Source: Prosthecobacter sp.
Lineage (GTDB): Bacteria; Verrucomicrobiota; Verrucomicrobiia; Verrucomicrobiales; Verrucomicrobiaceae
Length of the DNA: 64,000 nucleotides
Reading direction: 5' to 3'
Assembly: GCA_019186985.1 (NCBI GenBank)
Contig: JABARQ010000042.1
Location: forward strand, 1-64,000
Shown: one piece after another, positions 40,360-50,340 of the stretch
Position numbering within the stretch: the first letter of the stretch is position 1
How the letters are laid out: each line of letters starts with the position of its first letter
Made by a program: the position numbers and the translations under genes
The notes under the pieces: generated by a model
What the model saw: only the letters and a program-made list of their open reading frames with translations
The model's database searches: none
What the model was told of the DNA's origin: nothing

Positions 40360-40731
40360 ATGAACTGCCCTCGCTCCATCATCCTCCTTTTCACGCTGCT
40401 GGCGCAGATCTGGCCAGCCCAGGCGGTGATGAATGCAGGCGGCCGTCCTGAGACTTGTGAGATGGGCTGTTGCTTGGCCATGGCTGAACCTGGCATGAGC
40501 GCCTGCGGCTGCCTGGATGAACCCTCCACAGCTCCGGTGAATCCCGCCGCACCCACGTCAGCTGATGATCGGTTGATCTCGCCAAGGGTGTTGTGGACGA
40601 CCCAGGAGCCCCTGTCGCCATCACGTCCCGCCCGGGAGCTTCGGGCGGCGCATCAGAATCCCGCTGAGAATGGAGCCTGTCGGCAGCCGCATGTCCGGCG
40701 GACGGTGCTGTTCTGCTCCCTGCTGAACTGA
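40360..40731 (+). CDS. Small exported Cys-rich protein of the copper island
   Basis: A 123-residue protein with a signal peptide (MNCPRSIILLFTLLAQIWPAQA). The mature part has a dense cysteine patch CEMGCCLAMAEPGMSACGC including several Met residues, a composition suited to Cu(I) binding. The C-terminal half is Pro/Arg-rich and featureless. It is the first gene after the candidate ECF promoter, 102 bases before the multicopper oxidase gene, so a periplasmic copper-binding role is inferred. No family recognised. An upstream in-frame GTG at 40342 would add six residues to the signal peptide. Confidence 0.62.
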   Translation: MNCPRSIILLFTLLAQIWPAQAVMNAGGRPETCEMGCCLAMAEPGMSACGCLDEPSTAPVNPAAPTSADDRLISPRVLWTTQEPLSPSRPARELRAAHQNPAENGACRQPHVRRTVLFCSLLN

Positions 40732-40833
40732 GTCGGCGTCCTCCAAGGACCCATCATGCCCACGCATCGCAGCCCTTCAGGGGAGGTGTGCGCCCATGGG
40801 CCGGTTTTCAAAACCTTCAACGACTCACCTGCC

Positions 40834-42945
40834 ATGAAACGATCCAGCCTTTTTTCAGCCTTCCTCCTGCCAGCCACCCTTCTCGCCTGCGACACCTGCG
40901 GCAGAGGCGCCCCGAGCCCCGGCGGCCGGATGGTCGAACATGACCTCCACATTGCCGAACAGCACCTGAGCCCGGCCGGGAAACGTGTGCGTGCCCTCAC
41001 CATCAACGGAACCATGCCGGGCCCCACCCTGCGCTTCCAAGAAGGCGACATCGCACGGATCCGGGTTCACAACGACCTCCGGAACGAGGAGACCTCGACC
41101 CACTGGCACGGTCTGCTCCTGCCTAATGAACAGGATGGCGTGCCATATGTGACCACGCCCCCGATCCTGCCCGGGGCCGTTCACACCTTTGAATTCCCGC
41201 TGCGCCATGCCGGCACCTACTGGTTTCATTCCCACACCCATCTCCAGGAGCAGGGCGGCGTCTTCGGCAGCATCGTGGTCGAGCCACGGGACGGCGAACC
41301 CGTGAAGGCTGACAGGGAGCAGGTCCTGGTGCTGTCCGACTGGACCAACTACGACCCGATGGAGGTACTGCGCATGCTCATGCGCGGCAGTGATTACTTC
41401 GGCATCCTGCGCAACAACTCCCAGAGCATCCTCGGCGCCTGGAGGCGCGGCATGCTGAAGGAGTATTTCCAACGCGAATGGGACCGCCTGCCGCCCATGG
41501 ACATCTCGGACGTGGGCTACCATGCCTTCCTCATCAACGGCCTCCCGCAGACACGCATCGAAGGCAGGCCTGGGGAGCGCGTCCGGCTCCGGGTGATCAA
41601 CGCCAGCGCCGCCACCTATTTCTACCTGCACTCCAGCGCCGGCCCCATGACGATCATCGCCGCCGACGGCCCCGCCGTTGAGCCGGTGAAGGTGAACCGC
41701 TTCCTCATGGCCATCGCCGAAACCTACGACCTTCTCATCACCATTCCCGCCAGCGGCGAATTTGAGCTGCGCGCCACCAGCCAGGACGGCAGCGGCCATG
41801 CCTCCGCCTTTTTCGGCCAGGGGGCCTCTCATCCCGCCGACGACCCTCCCAGACCCAACCTTTATCAGATGGACCAGATGCTGAACCTCGCCCTTGAGGA
41901 GCAGGAGGACGACCCCCGTGCCTCGCTCCGGCTTGACCGGCCCGGCTCGCCCTACCGCCTGCTGAAGGCGGTGAAGGACACCACGCTGCCAGCCGGCCTG
42001 CCACGCCGCAGGATCACCCTGCATCTCACGGGCGACATGAACCGGTACATCTGGAGCTTTGACGGCAGGACGATCGCCCAGGAACCCTTCATCAAGATCC
42101 GGAAGGGGGAGATCATCGAGCTTGAGCTCATCAACGACAGCATGATGCATCATCCCATCCACCTTCATGGACATTTCTTCCGCCTGTTGATGGGAAACGG
42201 CGCACGCTCACCCCTGAAGCATACCGTCGATGTCCCGCCGATGAGCAGCCGGCTCGTGGAGTTCGAGGCCAATGAGGAAAAGGACTGGATGTTTCACTGC
42301 CATATCCTCTACCACATGATGAGCGGCATGGCGCGCGTGTTCCGCTATGAGCAGGAAGCCGGGGCTCCGGCTGTCGGCGCTCATGCCCCCCAGGCTCCGG
42401 CCTCCCCCGCAGAGCATCGCCGTCAGCACACGGGCGGCCTTGGCGAACACGCCCATGACATGAGCCACGTCTGGGGGGCGGCCTCCATCCAGAGCCAGAT
42501 GAGCAGCGGCCTGCTGACGTGGATGAACCCCAGGAACAACGTGCTGCTGTCCTGGGAGGTCGGCTGGGGACAATCCGATCAAGCCGAGCATGAGGTTGAC
42601 CTGACCTATCAGCGCTACCTGGACATGAACTTCCAGGCTTATGCCGGCTACCGCCTGGCGGACCATGGAGGCGGCGACCGCCCCATCGCCGGATTCAACT
42701 ACCGCCTGCCCCTCATGATCCTTTCGGACGTCACGGTGGACGGCCGGGGCAACGGCCGCTTCCAGCTCTCCAAACGCCTCCAGATCACTTCACGCCTGGG
42801 CGTTGCCGGTTACGCCTTTTACGACACCGGCAGCCATCTCGAATGGAGCGCCGCCGCCGATTACACGCTCACCCGATCCACCTCCCTCAGCATCTCCTAT
42901 CACAGCGATTACGGCCTCGGCGCCGGACTGCTTCTCCGTTTTTGA
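40834..42945 (+). CDS. Multicopper oxidase (CopA-like) fused to CopB-like outer-membrane barrel
   Basis: A 703-residue exported protein. Residues 30-510 are a three-domain multicopper oxidase with all four copper-binding blocks: HWH at 90-92, HSH at 132-134, HPIHLHGH at 440-447 and HCHILYHMMSGM at 488-499 (type 1 Cys489, Met499). It likely oxidises Cu(I) to Cu(II), as CopA/CueO do. After an Ala/Pro/His linker, residues about 535-703 form a separate domain of alternating strands (VLLSWEVGWGQ, FQAYAGYRLAD, SLSISYHSDYG) ending LLLRF, which resembles the CopB/PcoB outer-membrane barrel with its terminal Phe. In known pco/cop operons these are two proteins. The signal LLAC may be a lipobox (Cys19). 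Confidence 0.88.
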   Translation: MKRSSLFSAFLLPATLLACDTCGRGAPSPGGRMVEHDLHIAEQHLSPAGKRVRALTINGTMPGPTLRFQEGDIARIRVHNDLRNEETSTHWHGLLLPNEQDGVPYVTTPPILPGAVHTFEFPLRHAGTYWFHSHTHLQEQGGVFGSIVVEPRDGEPVKADREQVLVLSDWTNYDPMEVLRMLMRGSDYFGILRNNSQSILGAWRRGMLKEYFQREWDRLPPMDISDVGYHAFLINGLPQTRIEGRPGERVRLRVINASAATYFYLHSSAGPMTIIAADGPAVEPVKVNRFLMAIAETYDLLITIPASGEFELRATSQDGSGHASAFFGQGASHPADDPPRPNLYQMDQMLNLALEEQEDDPRASLRLDRPGSPYRLLKAVKDTTLPAGLPRRRITLHLTGDMNRYIWSFDGRTIAQEPFIKIRKGEIIELELINDSMMHHPIHLHGHFFRLLMGNGARSPLKHTVDVPPMSSRLVEFEANEEKDWMFHCHILYHMMSGMARVFRYEQEAGAPAVGAHAPQAPASPAEHRRQHTGGLGEHAHDMSHVWGAASIQSQMSSGLLTWMNPRNNVLLSWEVGWGQSDQAEHEVDLTYQRYLDMNFQAYAGYRLADHGGGDRPIAGFNYRLPLMILSDVTVDGRGNGRFQLSKRLQITSRLGVAGYAFYDTGSHLEWSAAADYTLTRSTSLSISYHSDYGLGAGLLLRF

Positions 42946-42994: not shown

Positions 42995-43222
42995 ATGAAA
43001 ACACTCGTCACCACCCTCCTGTTCAGCCTCGCCTCCGCCGCCCTGGCCGCCGACAAGCCCTATCCGCTCGACACCTGCATCGTCAGCGGCAACAAGCTCG
43101 GCACCATGGGCAAGGTCGTTGTCAGGTCCCACGAAGGCCAGGAGATCAAGTTCTGCTGCAAGCCCTGCGTGAAGAAGTTCGACGCCAATCCCGCCAAGTA
43201 TCTGTCCAGGCTGAAGAAGTAG
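42995..43222 (+). CDS. Small exported YHS/TRASH-like metal-binding protein
   Basis: A 75-residue protein with a signal peptide (MKTLVTTLLFSLASAALA). The mature 57 residues contain YPLDTCIVSGNKLG and IKFCCKPCVKKFDANPAKY, the layout of YHS/TRASH domains, in which one early Cys and a CCxxC cluster bind a metal. Such domains are found in copper chaperones and P-type ATPases. The final residues (KYLSRLKK) follow the usual end of the domain. It lies 49 bases after the multicopper oxidase gene and is probably the last gene of that transcript. Confidence 0.82.
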   Translation: MKTLVTTLLFSLASAALAADKPYPLDTCIVSGNKLGTMGKVVVRSHEGQEIKFCCKPCVKKFDANPAKYLSRLKK

Positions 43223-43312: not shown

Positions 43313-43337
43313 GGGTTTGGCGTGTGAAAGGTGTTTG
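43313..43337 (+). promoter_or_regulatory. Shared motif GGGTTTG-N9-AGGTGTTTG, copy 1
   Basis: A 25-base bipartite motif ends 46 bases before the start codon of the cnrY-like gene. An identical pair with the same 9-base spacer occurs at 44794-44818, 47 bases before the next transcript. The constant distance to the ATG suggests a promoter or operator. Confidence 0.5.
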
Positions 43338-43383
43338 TCTGATCGTCCCCACGGTGGAAAAGCACCCCCCTACACCACCCTTT

Positions 43384-43707
43384 ATGAACGACGACGAACT
43401 TCACCGCATCCTCTGTCGTGCAACAGCACGGAGCAGCCTGCCGGACACGTTCAACCGCGAGGTCTGGCACCGCATTGAGGCCGAGGAATCCATCTCCCTT
43501 GGGGCATGCCTCCGCCAGCTGTGCCAGAGGTTCTTCACCCTGCTCGCGCACCCATGTACCGGAGGGGCGGCCATCCTTGCCAGCATGGCTCTGGGAGCCT
43601 GGCTCGGTGTTCAGACAGCAGAAGCAGAGCCTCCCCTTGACGGCGCCTCAGCCTACCTCCGCTCCATTGACCCGCTGAAGGGCCACCCCAAGGAGGTCCG
43701 GCCGTGA
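43384..43707 (+). CDS. Putative membrane anti-sigma factor (CnrY-like position)
   Basis: A 107-residue protein with a cytoplasmic N-terminus (DDELHRILCRATARSSLPDTFNREVWHRIE) and one membrane helix (about 60-78, TGGAAILASMALGAWLGV), leaving about 28 residues in the periplasm. This topology, the size and the position directly before a periplasmic sensor and an ECF sigma match CnrY, the anti-sigma factor of Cupriavidus cobalt-nickel resistance. The N-terminal LPDTFNREVW helix is of the kind that wraps ECF sigmas, but sequence identity to CnrY is not claimed. The stop overlaps the GTG of the next gene (GTGA). Confidence 0.65.
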   Translation: MNDDELHRILCRATARSSLPDTFNREVWHRIEAEESISLGACLRQLCQRFFTLLAHPCTGGAAILASMALGAWLGVQTAEAEPPLDGASAYLRSIDPLKGHPKEVRP

Positions 43708-44180
43708 GAAAAGGCCAGTTCATCCTGCTGATCGCCCTGATGCTTGGCATCTGCATGTTTTTCTGCGCCCGCATGCTGCAGCGGCCACACGCCGGGGAAG
43801 CCCCCCCCTGGGAAGACCAGATCATGCTGCCGGAGCTGAAATGGCTGCGGGAACGACTGGGGCTGGATGAGCGGCAGTTCGCCCGCGTTCAGGAGCTGCA
43901 TGTGTCCTACCGTCCCAGGTGCCGTGAACTCTGCCAGCGGATCAGCCACGCGGAAGAATCCCTCATGCAAGTCCTCAGCGACCCCGGGAAGGATGCCACC
44001 GAAGCACTTCAGGAGGCCGCTTCCGTCAGGCTTGAATGCCAGAAAGCGATGCTGGACCACATCCGGCAGACAGCCGCCTGCATGGATCCCCAGCAGGCCA
44101 AGGACTATTTCAACACCGTGCTGCCGCACTTCCTGGGAATCCGGCACTGCTGCGAGCTGGAACCCCGGCCATCCAACTGA
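43704..44180 (+). CDS. Periplasmic metal sensor, CnrX/ZraP-like
   Basis: A 158-residue protein with one N-terminal membrane anchor (about 6-26) and an all-helical periplasmic domain. LKWLRERLGLDERQFARVQELH is the first long helix of Spy/CpxP/ZraP/CnrX-type proteins, and a second helix pair holds MLDHIRQTAACM, with His and Met placed like CnrX metal ligands. The Cys-Cys pair near the C-terminus (RHCCEL) is extra. The start is GTG at 43704, overlapping the upstream stop, with a strong AGGAGG at 43691-43696. Probably senses a metal and releases the ECF sigma through the membrane partner. Confidence 0.75.
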   Translation: MRKGQFILLIALMLGICMFFCARMLQRPHAGEAPPWEDQIMLPELKWLRERLGLDERQFARVQELHVSYRPRCRELCQRISHAEESLMQVLSDPGKDATEALQEAASVRLECQKAMLDHIRQTAACMDPQQAKDYFNTVLPHFLGIRHCCELEPRPSN

Positions 44181-44185
44181 GCCCG

Positions 44186-44752
44186 ATGTCAGACACCCCT
44201 CCCGACGCCGACCACCTTGCCATGCAGCGGCTTGCCTCAGGCGATGACACCGCCCTGAACGAGATCATGAACCGGTGGAAGGAGAAGGTGGCCGGCTTTG
44301 TGCAGCGCATGACAGGAGATGCTGAAACAGCGGCTGATCTTGCCATGGAAACCTTTGTCCGGATCTATCAGCACCGGCATTCCTACCAGGCGAACGCCGC
44401 CTTTGCCACCTACCTGTTCCGCATTGCGACGAACCTCACCCGCAACCACCTGCGCTGGCAGCGCCGTCACCCCTCGGCCTCCATTGACGATGCGCGCCTG
44501 ACCGTGGAAACCCAGCAGGGAGAGCTGCCATCCGATGCTGACGCTGGCCTGAGGGAACGCCTGACCATCGTTGAAAAGGCCATCAGCGCACTGCCACCGG
44601 ACCTGAGGGAAGCCATTCTGCTCTTCACCTACGAGGACATGAGCTACGCTGAGATCGCCAGAACCTCCCGCTGCAGCATCAAGGCCGTGGAAACACGCAT
44701 CTACCGGGCTCGCCAGATCCTCAAGTCGCTGCTTAAAGATTCAGGCTTTTAG
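44186..44752 (+). CDS. ECF RNA polymerase sigma factor (CnrH-like position)
   Basis: A 188-residue sigma-70 family factor with regions 2 and 4. Region 2 runs from GDDTALNEIMNRWKEKV to FATYLFRIATNLTRNHLRWQRR (2.4), and region 4 contains LPPDLREAILLFTYEDMSY and AEIARTSRCSIKAVETRIYRAR, the -35-binding helix-turn-helix. It is the third gene of a Y-X-H-like set, 5 bases after the sensor gene, so sigma, sensor and anti-sigma are made together. Likely targets are promoters inside the same island (see the motifs at 40320, 43313, 44794 and 47989). The distal stretch to 44866 has no terminator. Confidence 0.9.
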   Translation: MSDTPPDADHLAMQRLASGDDTALNEIMNRWKEKVAGFVQRMTGDAETAADLAMETFVRIYQHRHSYQANAAFATYLFRIATNLTRNHLRWQRRHPSASIDDARLTVETQQGELPSDADAGLRERLTIVEKAISALPPDLREAILLFTYEDMSYAEIARTSRCSIKAVETRIYRARQILKSLLKDSGF

Positions 44753-45360: not shown

Positions 45361-45454
45361 ACCGGCTCCATGCAAACCAGGACAGGCAATGACCGGCGCC
45401 GACGTTTGATGCATGCCCATGCATGCCTTCCATGAACATCCAGCCTCCAGGGTC

Positions 45455-46597
45455 ATGATTCGATGGTCAGCGCTTTTGCAGCCGCCCTGGATCAGCCTTG
45501 CCATCGCCGTCCTGCTGCCTCTGACCGTGTCCGCACAGGTGGTCCGCATCGAAACGCTGCCAGAACCAGGCATGCAACCTCAGGTCGCGGTCAGTTCCGG
45601 CGGTGTGGTGCATCTGGTCTACCTCCTGGGTGAACCCGGAGCCTGCGATGTCCGCTACACGAACCGCCCCGCGAAAGGAGGAGCGTGGACAGCGCCCGTC
45701 ACCGTGAACAGCGAACCCGGAACCGCCATCGCCACGGGCACGATCCGGGGCGCCCAGCTTGCCCTTGGAAAAGGAGACAGCGTGCAGGTGGTGTGGAATG
45801 GCAGCACAGGCGGCAAGAAGGAACGCATGATGCATGCACCGCTGTTTCACGCCCGCCTTGTCCCTGGAGCGAAAACCTTCAGCCGGCAGCAAAACCTCTC
45901 CGGGGACACCACGGCGCTTGACGGTGGAGCCTCGATTGCTGCGGACGGCCGGGGGACAGTCAGCCTCGTCTGGCACGCCACGCCCTCCGAAACCGCAGGC
46001 GAATCCACGCGCCTTGTCTACGAACGCCGTTCCATGGATGATGGTGGAACCTTTGCCGCCCAACAACCCCTCAACACTGAAAAACCGGGGGTTTGCGCAT
46101 GCTGCTCCCTGCGTGCTCATCTGGCGGCGGATGGCACGCTGACCGTGCTTTATCGCAACATGTCACCACCCGCTTCACGCGGCATGACACTGCTCACACG
46201 CCAGGCCGGCAGAACCCGGCTCACCCGGCTTGACGACTGGCAAGCCGCCATGTGCCCGATGAGCAGCGCCAGCCTGATGCCATCAGGCCAGGGGCTTCTG
46301 GCGGCCTGGGAAAATGAAGGCCGGATCAGCACAGGCATCGTTGGAGGCACGGCCACAGCAGTGCAAAGGACCGGCCCTGCAAACGCCAGGCATCCCGCGC
46401 TTGCCAGAAATGAGCAGGGCTGGACCCTCATCACCAGCGTCGTTGGTACGGGCTGGAACAAGGCTGGGACACTTCATTGGGACCTGATGAACGCAGCGGG
46501 GCGGATCACCGCTTCAGGCTCCGGAGTCAAGCTGCCGACATGGAGTTTCCCTGCGGCTCATGCCTGCCCTGACGGCAGCTTTGTCGTCCTGCAATGA
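45455..46597 (+). CDS. Exported BNR/sialidase-like repeat protein with CxCC motif
   Basis: A 380-residue exported protein (signal MIRWSALLQPPWISLAIAVLL, cleaved near VSA). The mature part is a beta-propeller of the BNR/exo-alpha-sialidase superfamily: repeated Asp-rich turns such as SMDDGGTF, IAADGRGTVSLVW and HLAADGTLTVLY. The catalytic Arg triad of true sialidases is not evident. A CACC motif (GVCACCSLRAHL, about 210-225) and a second Cys (AAMCPMSS) could bind copper. Two further in-frame ATGs lie upstream at 45413 and 45419. It ends the rightward part of the island and converges with the second ECF sigma gene. Confidence 0.7.
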   Translation: MIRWSALLQPPWISLAIAVLLPLTVSAQVVRIETLPEPGMQPQVAVSSGGVVHLVYLLGEPGACDVRYTNRPAKGGAWTAPVTVNSEPGTAIATGTIRGAQLALGKGDSVQVVWNGSTGGKKERMMHAPLFHARLVPGAKTFSRQQNLSGDTTALDGGASIAADGRGTVSLVWHATPSETAGESTRLVYERRSMDDGGTFAAQQPLNTEKPGVCACCSLRAHLAADGTLTVLYRNMSPPASRGMTLLTRQAGRTRLTRLDDWQAAMCPMSSASLMPSGQGLLAAWENEGRISTGIVGGTATAVQRTGPANARHPALARNEQGWTLITSVVGTGWNKAGTLHWDLMNAAGRITASGSGVKLPTWSFPAAHACPDGSFVVLQ

Positions 46598-46620: not shown

Positions 46621-47139
46621 TCAGGCGCAGTCACAATCCAGGCAACCATGGGCGGCGCAGGCCCGGCAGGTGCGTTCGACTAGTTCGCGCAGCCTTCGCC
46701 GGGCACGGTACAGCCTGACATTGAGCGTGTTGACACGCAGGTTCGACGACCTGGCGACCTCGGAGGCCGGCTCACCCTCCAGGTCAACGCGGCGGATCAG
46801 TGCGGCATCCTCCGCCGGCAGCCCTGGCAGCAGCTTCATCACGCACTGGCAGATGTTCTTCTCTTCCTCAGGCTCCAGCCTGCCTGACAGCTCGAGCACC
46901 AGGGCGTCAGACGATTTTTCCCTCGTCTCCCTGCGGCGGTGCGCATCAATGATCGCATGCCTCAGCACGCGGTAAAACCAGGTCACCACACCCTCGGCAT
47001 CCTCCGGCACAGGGTCGGCCTTCATGGCCTTCAAAAGACACTCCTGCACCAGGTCGGCCGCCAGTTCCGGATCACCCGTGCGGGCGCGGGCAAAGCCGAC
47101 AAAGGCGTCGAGATGCTGAAGCAGAGGATCGAGGGACAT
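46621..47139 (-). CDS. ECF sigma factor with C-terminal five-Cys tail
   Basis: A 172-residue ECF sigma factor. Region 2 includes DPELAADLVQECLLKA and VVTWFYRVLRHAIIDAHRRR, and region 4 includes LPAEDAALIRRVDLEGEPASEVA. Instead of ending after region 4 it carries CRACAAHGCLDCDC, with Cys158, 161, 166, 169 and 171. A Cys-rich tail after region 4 is known from CorE-type sigmas of Myxococcus, where it senses copper directly and no anti-sigma is used. The same logic is likely here, with no anti-sigma gene adjacent. It lies 13 bases after the L,D-transpeptidase gene, so the two are co-transcribed. Confidence 0.85.
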   Translation of the reverse strand: MSLDPLLQHLDAFVGFARARTGDPELAADLVQECLLKAMKADPVPEDAEGVVTWFYRVLRHAIIDAHRRRETREKSSDALVLELSGRLEPEEEKNICQCVMKLLPGLPAEDAALIRRVDLEGEPASEVARSSNLRVNTLNVRLYRARRRLRELVERTCRACAAHGCLDCDCA

Positions 47140-47152
47140 GGCAGCCGCTTGG

Positions 47153-47866
47153 TCAACGAACCCGCACGGGTGTTCCATTCAGCACCCATTCAAAGAAAAG
47201 CTTCGCCGGATTGCCTTCATCCAGCGGCAGGCGGATGCAGCCGTGCGACGCCGGATAAGCGGGCACGCTGGTGAAGCCATGAATGAAGACGTGCCCGTTG
47301 ATCTGCACGCTCCAGGGCATGGGGGCGTTCTGATAACGGCTGGAACGATGCATCACCGCCCGGTAGGGGCCTGCACGAAAATCCCCCTTCGGTGTGCTCC
47401 CTCGCCGACCGGAGCTGATGCGCGTCTTCAGCACCAGGCGTCCGCCCTGCCAGCATTCCAGAGTCTGCGCGGCCAGATTGACCTCCACCCGCTGGGCCGA
47501 AACCAGCACCGTGAATCCACGAAACAGCCGCCCCACCCGGAACCGGCCTTTTTCATCCAAAGCCGATGCCGGCGCCCCGGCCAGCTCAAGCAACTCCTTG
47601 TCCACCAGTTCAGTGCCGTCGGTCAGGCACCGCAGCGAGCCCGCCCGCATGGGCAGCCCGTTCAGCTCAAAGACCTTTCCTTCATCATCCTGACGCAGGC
47701 TCCACTTCAACGCCTCCACCGCCTCCTCCACGGGCACAAAGACCTTCCCGGGCTCAGCGGCAAACACGATTCCCTCAAGCGTCGCCGACTTCAACGGCTG
47801 GGCCAGGGCAGACCATGCCAGCAGACAGATCATCCATGAAGGGAAAGAGCGGCGAGGGTTCCTCAT
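47153..47866 (-). CDS. L,D-transpeptidase (YkuD domain) exported protein
   Basis: A 237-residue exported protein (signal MRNPRRSFPSWMICLLAWSALA). After a copper-amine-oxidase-N-like segment (FVPVEEAVEALKW), the C-terminal YkuD domain has HGFTSVPAYPASHGCIRL, giving the active-site His and Cys210, which form 3-3 cross-links in peptidoglycan or anchor proteins to it. Start 47866 is chosen for the signal; the open frame upstream to 48001 is not coding. It precedes the five-Cys sigma gene and is divergent from the copper ATPase gene. Some YkuD proteins respond to copper, and L,D-transpeptidases are copper-inhibited, which may explain its place. Confidence 0.85.
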   Translation of the reverse strand: MRNPRRSFPSWMICLLAWSALAQPLKSATLEGIVFAAEPGKVFVPVEEAVEALKWSLRQDDEGKVFELNGLPMRAGSLRCLTDGTELVDKELLELAGAPASALDEKGRFRVGRLFRGFTVLVSAQRVEVNLAAQTLECWQGGRLVLKTRISSGRRGSTPKGDFRAGPYRAVMHRSSRYQNAPMPWSVQINGHVFIHGFTSVPAYPASHGCIRLPLDEGNPAKLFFEWVLNGTPVRVR

Positions 47867-47988
47867 CGGCCGGACCATAACGCATGCATCAACATTGCCG
47901 TCAGATCTTTTTCGAGCCTGGGCACGGCCCTCTGGCGGCCGCCGCTTCAGCTTGCCAAGATCCGCGCAGACAGGTCTGCTTTTCATCG

Positions 47989-48012
47989 GTAACACTTCCA
48001 CGCCTCATCCGT
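47989..48012 (+). promoter_or_regulatory. Candidate ECF-type promoter, GTAACA-N14-CCGT
   Basis: Same layout as the site at 40320: AAC-N16-CGT within TAACA-14 bases-CCGTG. It lies 54 bases ahead of the copper ATPase ATG at 48067 (9 bases before an alternative ATG at 48022). Confidence 0.5.
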
Positions 48013-48066
48013 GAGCGGATCATGGAGGCCCTTCATTCCGGCCCCGCCCAAACACCTCCATCCACC

Positions 48067-50340
48067 ATGTCAGCCCATCATCACGACAAACCTGCCTCCT
48101 GTTGCTCACGCAAGCCGAGGCCTTCCCCGCCCTCCTGCTGCGAGGCGAAACCCGCCAAACCGGCCTGCTGCGGGCATGAGCACAGCCCCCCCGTCCAGCC
48201 CTCCGCCTCCGCGAAATACTTCTGCCCGATGTGCCCCGGGGTGGAGTCCGACCAACCGGGCATCTGCCCCAAGTGCGGCATGGCCCTGGAGCGCAACCCC
48301 GCCTTCGGCCCTACGGCGCCGGGAGAAGATGACGCGGAGCTGAAGAACATGACGCAGCGTCTTTTCTGGAGCACGCTGCTGACGCTGCCGGTTTTCATCA
48401 CCGCCATGGCTCACCTGGCACCAGCCTGGCGTCATGCCGAGTGGGCGAATGGTGAAGCTTCGCGCTGGATGCAGTTCGCCCTGGCCTTTCCAGTGGTCCT
48501 CTGGGCTGGCGCACCCTTCTTTCTTCGTGCCTGGCTCTCGCTGAAGCACGGCAGCATGAACATGTTCACCCTCATCGCCCTCGGCGTAGGTTCGGCCTTT
48601 GCCTTCAGCGCCGCCGTCATGCTGGCGCCCGGAGCCTTTCCCGCATCCCTGGCGGATGCCCACGGTCGCCTGCCGCTCTATTTTGAGGCTGCCACGGTGA
48701 TCATCGTGCTGGTCCTGCTCGGCCAGGTCCTGGAGCTTCGAGCCCGCGCCCGCACCGGCAGCGCCATCCAGGAACTGCTGGGGCTCCAGCCCAAAACCGC
48801 CACACTGCTCAAGCCGGAGGGTGATGTGGAGGTGCCTCTCGAATCCGTGAAGGTGGGCGACCGCCTGCGCGTCCGTCCTGGCGAAAAAATCCCCGTGGAC
48901 GGCCGGGTCACTGAAGGTCGCAGCCATGTCGATGAAGCCATGATCACCGGCGAGGCCATCCCGGTTGAAAAAACCACGGGCTCCCATGTCACCGGCGGCA
49001 CCTTGAATCAGCAGGGCTCCCTGGTCGTTGAGGCGACCCGCATCGGCGCGGACACCCTGCTGGCACAGATCGTCAAACTGGTCGGGGAAGCCCAGCGCAG
49101 CCGTGCTCCTGTGCAGGCGCTGGCCGACAAGGTGGCGGCCTGGTTTGTCCCCGCCGTGCTCCTGGCCTCCCTGGTCACCTTTGCCCTCTGGTGGAGCCTG
49201 GGCCCCGAGCCGCGGCTGGCCCACGCGCTCACCAGCACCGTCGCCGTGCTCATCATCGCCTGCCCCTGCGCCCTTGGCCTGGCCACCCCCATGAGCGTCA
49301 TGGTCGGCATCGGCCGCGGCGCCAGGATGGGCGTGCTGATCCGTGAGGCCGCCGCCATCGAGAAACTGGCCTCGCTCAACACCCTGGCCGTGGACAAGAC
49401 CGGCACGCTCACCCTCGGGCGTCCCGACGTGACGGAGATCCTGACCGCCTCTGAATCCCGCCCCGGCAGCGACGCAGCACTCGCCCTGGCAGCCGCCGTC
49501 GAACGGCACAGCGAACATCCTCTCGCCCAGGCCATCACCCAGGCCGCCCAGGCCCGCGGCCTCCCCCGGCTCGACGTCCTTGAATTCCACAGCACCACCG
49601 GCGGCGGTGTGAGCGGACGTGTGACTGAAAAGCTCGTGCTCATTGGCAAGCCGGACTTCCTCCGCCAGCATCAGGTCAGCGGCCTGGAATCGCTGGAAAC
49701 CAGGGCTGCTGCGCATCAGCAGGAAGGCAGGACGGCCATCTTCATGGCGGTCGATGGACAAGCCGCGGCCGCGCTCATCATCAGCGACCCCGTCAAGCCG
49801 ACCACGCCGGAGGCACTGGCAAGGTTGAAACAGCTCGGCGTCCAGGTCGTCATGCTCACGGGAGACAACGAACGCACCGCCGCAAGGATCGCAGGCTTCC
49901 TGGGCATCGAACGCTTCCACGCCGGAGTCACCCCTCAGGAAAAGCATGCCCTGGTGCTTGGCATGAAGCATCCTGGCAGCGTCGTCGGCATGGCGGGAGA
50001 TGGCGTGAATGACGCCCCCGCCCTGGCCGGCGCCGATGTCGGCATCGCCATGGGCACGGGCACGGACATCGCCATGGAAAGCGCGCCTGTCACGCTCGTG
50101 CACGGCGACCTGCGCGGCATCGTTCATGCCATTGAACTCGGGCGTGCCATGATGCGGAACATCCGCCAGAACCTGCTGTTCGCCTTCCTCTACAACGCCG
50201 TCGGCATCCCGGTGGCCGCAGGCATGTTATATCCTTGGTTCGGCATCCTCCTCAGCCCCATGCTGGCCGGGGCCGCCATGAGCCTGAGCTCCGTCTCCGT
50301 CATCAGCAACGCCCTGCGCCTGCGGCGCTTCCAGGCATGA
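48067..50340 (+). CDS. copA: Copper-translocating P1B-type ATPase
   Basis: A 757-residue P-type ATPase exporting Cu(I) from the cytoplasm. The N-terminus is rich in His and Cys (HHHDK at 4-8, CC pairs at 12-13, 24-25 and 34-35, CGHEH at 35-39), then a heavy-metal-binding domain [10 protein letters not shown] to CPKCGM at 51-72 replaces the usual HMA domain. Ion-path CPC at 399-401, phosphorylated Asp443 in [14 protein letters not shown] in the actuator domain, SEHPLA with His484-Pro485, and GDGVNDAPA at about 644 are all intact. An upstream in-frame ATG at 48022 would add 15 residues. Confidence 0.95.

Follow-up and report, generated by a model that had tools for sequence, protein, structure and literature searches.

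Copper resistance of the pco/cop type depends on a copper-resistance oxidase, PcoA (CopA), and a 12-stranded outer-membrane barrel, PcoB (CopB), encoded in one copper locus. The barrel of E. coli PcoB has 12 strands, both termini on the periplasmic face and two acidic pore pairs, D97-E207 and E130-E223, as described in PMC9210255. In Caulobacter, where PcoB is a separate protein, its disordered N-terminus stabilises PcoA and must keep a minimal set of His residues for resistance (PMC12509749). The transport direction of PcoB is disputed, uptake being advanced in PMC9210255 and efflux in PMC12509749, and its contact with PcoA has only been inferred. The initial annotation of the gene described here held that oxidase and barrel are separate in known pco/cop operons. 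This is usually, though not always, the case, since one sentence of a 2012 paper mentions fused PcoA-PcoB in five Legionella species (PMC3548706). In addition, the 809-residue multicopper oxidase G2EDV6 of Bizionia argentinensis was described in 2024 as having a C-terminal porin-like region with some similarity to PcoB (PMC11213822). Compared by description only, the Legionella proteins are the same kind of fusion as the one reported below; on the same basis, G2EDV6 shares the oxidase with a PcoB-like C-terminus and belongs to Bacteroidota, the phylum of most plasmid fusions, but has 809 residues and comes from a phylum other than ours. Given these two reports, the oxidase-barrel architecture has some precedent. 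Among open PMC papers, none was found that describes the fusion in Verrucomicrobiota or its missing twin-arginine (Tat) signal. A supposed precedent for a "fused copA", PMC11082258, was rejected because it deals with a P-type ATPase tagged with GFP.

We analysed a window of 64,000 nucleotides from Prosthecobacter sp. (contig JABARQ010000042.1, positions 1 to 64,000), in which a gene on the forward strand (40834..42945) encodes a multicopper oxidase fused to a predicted C-terminal outer-membrane barrel. All features of this gene given below lie on the same strand. The product has 703 aa and ends in LLLRF, and coordinates and frame are as first annotated. An alternative upstream ATG at 40756 would give a product of 729 aa; the start at 40834 is preferred because a hydrophobic export signal opens there and because it aligns with the starts of close relatives such as L034, L035 and L037. 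The predicted export signal, read from the sequence (residues 1-18; 40834..40887), is without a twin arginine and is followed by a CDTC motif (residues 19-22; 40888..40899) at the likely mature N-terminus. A C[DN]xC motif occurs at this place in 32 of 42 fused proteins (the window protein and 31 of 41 relatives) and is missing in the other 10 of the 41. Some fused proteins may use the motif as a lipid anchor. Since Leu before Cys does not fit a lipobox, and Leu precedes the Cys of the motif in L029-L031, a metal or disulfide role is also possible.

The multicopper oxidase region covers about residues 33-505 (40930..42348), and the Pfam domains Cu-oxidase_3, Cu-oxidase and Cu-oxidase_2 match at residues 40-507, all over the cut-off. 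The four copper-site blocks claimed for this polypeptide are all present, namely HWHG (residues 90-93; 41101-41112), WFHSHTH (residues 130-136; 41221-41241), HPIHLHGH (residues 440-447; 42151-42174) and HCHILYHMMSGM (residues 488-499; 42295-42330). Together with the three oxidase domains, these blocks, which hold the ligands of the type 1 and trinuclear sites, identify a multicopper oxidase, and all four were found in 42 of the 42 fused proteins compared. The fused gene is the one PF07732 gene found in this genome. Behind the oxidase, a linker of about residues 506-544 (42349..42465), which has low model confidence, leads to the barrel; six His lie within residues 505-545. Linkers of the window's subfamily contain His, while the Bacteroidota and Ilyobacter fusion linkers compared have 0 to 2.

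The best NCBIfam match of the protein is TIGR01480, the copper-resistance oxidase model, which is far ahead of the next model (E 4e-119 vs 1e-40). This argues against an enzyme whose substrate is mainly Fe(II), Mn(II) or phenols, that is, a laccase at the outer membrane, as does the presence of copper and metal genes around the fusion, both in the window and at all five distant fusions that we opened. Such a laccase would be consistent with the TIGR01480 score of 398.6 bits, which misses the curated cut-off of 478.95, with the occurrence of laccases among the best solved relatives and with the window's subfamily having no Met-rich insert (2-4 Met per 75 residues where measured). Fe(II) oxidation has moreover been proposed for some PcoA-PcoB pairs (PMC5566968). 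Weighing both sides, we regard a mainly non-copper substrate as improbable, and copper as the substrate is preferred. Other fused lineages (L046-L049, L071, L073 and L075) do have long stretches rich in Met, either within the oxidase or ahead of it.

The initial annotation also proposed that the C-terminal domain is strand-rich and resembles CopB/PcoB. Structure prediction bore this out for residues 545-703, which end in LLLRF (42466..42942) and were modelled as a 12-stranded outer-membrane barrel of the PcoB fold. AlphaFold2 models of the full-length protein and of the C-terminus alone were built on 17-row alignments. The full-length model, which was of moderate confidence (mean pLDDT 65.2), displayed 12 strands over residues 545-702 behind a low-confidence linker (508-543), and a fold search with it returned oxidases only among the 50 best matches listed. 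Because the enzyme domain fills that list, the barrel was modelled and searched separately; the C-terminus alone (168 residues) gave the same 12 strands at a mean pLDDT of 87.3. In Foldseek, PcoB (7pge) came first at E 1.4e-5, with a designed barrel a close second at 2.1e-5. VIA-align likewise placed 7pge first (Z 17.7, rmsd 2.8 A, 159 of 168 residues), followed by the porins VhGalP (Z 16.3) and KdgM (Z 15.8).

Type V autotransporters have a signal, an N-terminal passenger and then a 12-stranded C-terminal barrel, and the fusion has the same signal-passenger-barrel order. The oxidase might accordingly be thought to pass through the barrel and to work at the cell surface, and autotransporter barrels such as EstA and NalP do match the fold, though more weakly (Z 12-13). 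However, the barrel is much shorter than autotransporter barrels and nearer to PcoB, its model is without a helix of at least 4 residues, and the fusion has no Pfam autotransporter match: no autotransporter family is among the 13 Pfam families matched by 20 fused C-termini. In addition, a folded copper enzyme would be too large for a pore of such size. Surface display is therefore very unlikely in our estimate, the least likely of the readings considered, and we continue with an oxidase that stays in the periplasm.

Sequence profiles also connect the barrel with CopB/PcoB. A profile of 20 fused C-termini aligned with one of 10 CopB/PcoB proteins at an hhalign score of 57.1, whereas the best of 200 column shuffles scored 28.4, the best of 200 block shuffles 43.5 and the reversed profile 26.5. 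In a Pfam scan of the 20 C-termini, CopB (PF05275) was the top family, matching 11 of the 20 with a best E of 4.5e-6; of the 12 remaining families matched, eight bear the names of outer-membrane, receptor or porin barrels. For the window's own C-terminus, Pfam gave an OmpG-type porin (E 0.029) but no CopB match, and the fused frames in the genome search all missed the PF05275 cut-off, scoring below 27 bits. Unlike PcoA and PcoB, the fusion thus misses both curated cut-offs, TIGR01480 and PF05275. A sequence-profile search of the PDB with the barrel ranked a designed 12-strand barrel (E 5e-4) ahead of PcoB (E 0.066). Matches occur in both directions, the CopB model matching fused frames (G412, E 1.3e-5) and the fused-barrel profile matching a separate CopB (G267, E 1.3e-6). 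We read the kinship of the barrel with CopB/PcoB as probable remote homology, on the combined evidence of profile and fold. The contrary outcome, a soluble or disordered C-terminus unrelated to CopB, was not seen, given the barrel model and a profile match above all shuffles.

A further question is whether such a barrel carries copper. In a global profile alignment that is weak over the strands with the acidic pore pairs, PcoB E207 stands opposite a Ser of the window protein and E223 falls in a gap. This would suit a barrel that is an anchor only, which carries no copper but keeps the enzyme placed and stable on the periplasmic side of the outer membrane, as would the small size and short turns of the 168-residue model and the influence that the separate PcoB already has on PcoA stability, as stated in the Caulobacter account (PMC12509749). 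On the other hand, the family strictly conserves charged residues of the barrel strands (E587, for instance, in 20 of 20 rows), which seems beyond the needs of an anchor, D636 is another conserved acid of the barrel, and the closest fold is that of a protein described as conducting Cu2+ (PMC9210255). A mere anchor is, in our judgement, rather unlikely, and a barrel that takes part in copper handling is favoured.

The fusion is not confined to this contig. Among 68 genomes searched in the same family, 51 had some match, and 34 (the window's own included) had the fusion as one stop-free piece that starts at residue 32 or before and reaches at least residue 700. In the phylum, the fused-barrel profile matched 33 of 387 genomes, 29 of them in uninterrupted frames of at least 700 aa. 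A frameshift, stop-loss or assembly artefact is rejected in view of this stop-free recurrence in 34 of 68 family and 29 of 387 phylum genomes, and of the occurrence of the fusion in named records as well. Of the remaining four of the 33 phylum matches, G329 and G179 have one in-frame stop each, the frame in G320 is only 77 aa long, and the match in G267 is a separate CopB. In G329 (L066/L096), a single TAG (1245-1247) stands between oxidase and barrel, exactly at the linker; it could be an error, mark a pseudogene or have split the gene secondarily. The barrel was also searched for in plasmids, at the lax E-value limit of 1, and 20 records matched: 18 from Bacteroidota, one from Ilyobacter (Fusobacteriota) and one from Klebsiella. 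The Klebsiella match is short and without an annotated gene, and the other 19 are annotated merely as "multicopper oxidase". A search of phages gave no match. The occurrence of the fusion in relatives, which the initial annotation had named as a point to check, holds for half of the 68 family genomes searched and for plasmids. A separate CopB over the cut-off was found in eight of the 387 phylum genomes, and it adjoins its own oxidase gene in seven of the seven compared (G115 left out); the window's own genome has none over the cut-off, its single weak match being at E 0.29. Oxidase and barrel in one chain seem to be a widespread variant of the known copper-defence pair that mostly goes unlabelled, and for the many Verrucomicrobiota and Bacteroidota proteins labelled just "multicopper oxidase", the outer membrane is the place to look.

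Fused and separate oxidases differ in descent and in export signal. In an unrooted tree of 42 hand-picked oxidase domains, 33 fused ones (found via the barrel) were split by a 100/100 branch from nine with a separate CopB (found via CopB). The simplest reading of these sequences would be one fusion that then spread. The Tat signal, usual for CopA, was absent by simple pattern match from all 41 fused relatives and, by eye, from the window protein. In contrast, the Tat motif was present in 9 of 11 separate oxidases: three of four from plasmids (by pattern) and six of seven from Verrucomicrobiota (by eye, in seven of the eight CopB-positive genomes, G115 being left out). The difference has a Fisher value of 1.2e-8, which ignores kinship and is a guide only; L112 and L113 are near-identical, and for L071, where the pattern was applied to a stretch beyond the N-terminus, the N-terminus was read by eye. 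L079 and G267, the two separate oxidases that lack the motif, cluster together in the tree. Tat transports folded proteins and the barrel has to arrive in the periplasm unfolded, which is likely the reason that the fusions have no Tat pattern. An SRR pair that falls short of the pattern was seen in the fused L029-L031, and Tat export may occur in these three. On contig 7 of G436 (150500-162500; L110), a twin-arginine separate oxidase, its CopB and a fused oxidase-barrel lie within 6.6 kb, so that the two arrangements occur naturally next to each other.

Taken together, sequence and models indicate that the gene product is probably a PcoA/CopA-type oxidase that acts on Cu(I) in the periplasm and is covalently joined to a PcoB-like outer-membrane barrel of its own. 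Sec would carry the polypeptide unfolded across the inner membrane, BAM would insert the barrel with both ends periplasmic, and the oxidase would fold and acquire copper in the periplasm. At the inner mouth of the small barrel, the oxidase would then turn Cu(I) into Cu(II), which the barrel would bind or pass, in either direction, and the fusion linker would stand in for the disordered, His-containing N-terminus of the separate PcoB. In this way the fusion would couple oxidation with export or sequestration, as the initial annotation suggested. A stronger version is possible but doubtful, namely that the fusions are a family apart, whose members combine oxidase and channel in a single polypeptide exported by Sec. 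Copper would be oxidised by the periplasmic domain and handed via the linker into the molecule's own barrel, so that the oxidation state would gate passage through the outer membrane. If that were true, the separate PcoA and PcoB would also act as a one-to-one complex. Since the natural fusion fixes the partners 1:1 in a single construct, the coupling of oxidation with outer-membrane passage is directly testable. The fusion also raises a question of export, because Sec in place of Tat would imply that copper is loaded in the periplasm.

The neighbourhood of the fusion was compared at 29 loci (L005-L033, one genome each) with flanks of up to about 1.5 kb. Upstream in the window, on the forward strand, is an ORF for a small exported Cys-rich protein (40360..40731) that has no Pfam family and is perhaps a copper carrier; its relatives lie beside the fusion at 16 of the 29 loci. 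An exported YHS/TRASH-like protein of 75 aa (42995..43222, forward; Pfam YHS E 7e-6, below the cut-off) begins 49 bases downstream, and a relative of it was found at all 29. A sigma module follows on the same strand (43324..44752), consisting of a small membrane-type protein (43324-43707), a Metal_resist-like sensor (43704-44180; below the cut-off) and an ECF sigma factor (ORF 44036-44752, likely start 44186). A BNR-repeat-like exported protein (45413-46597, forward; below the Pfam cut-off) recurs beside fusions in six loci. On the reverse strand, a second ECF sigma factor (46621..47178) has a Cys-rich tail, CRACAAHGCLDCDCA, read from the sequence, and resembles the copper-dependent CorE of Myxococcus; two CorE-like sigma factors in Verrucomicrobia are listed in PMC3107203. 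This gene is divergent from, and near, that of a copper-type P1B ATPase (47884..50340, forward; over the TIGR01511 cut-off), with an L,D-transpeptidase gene between the two.
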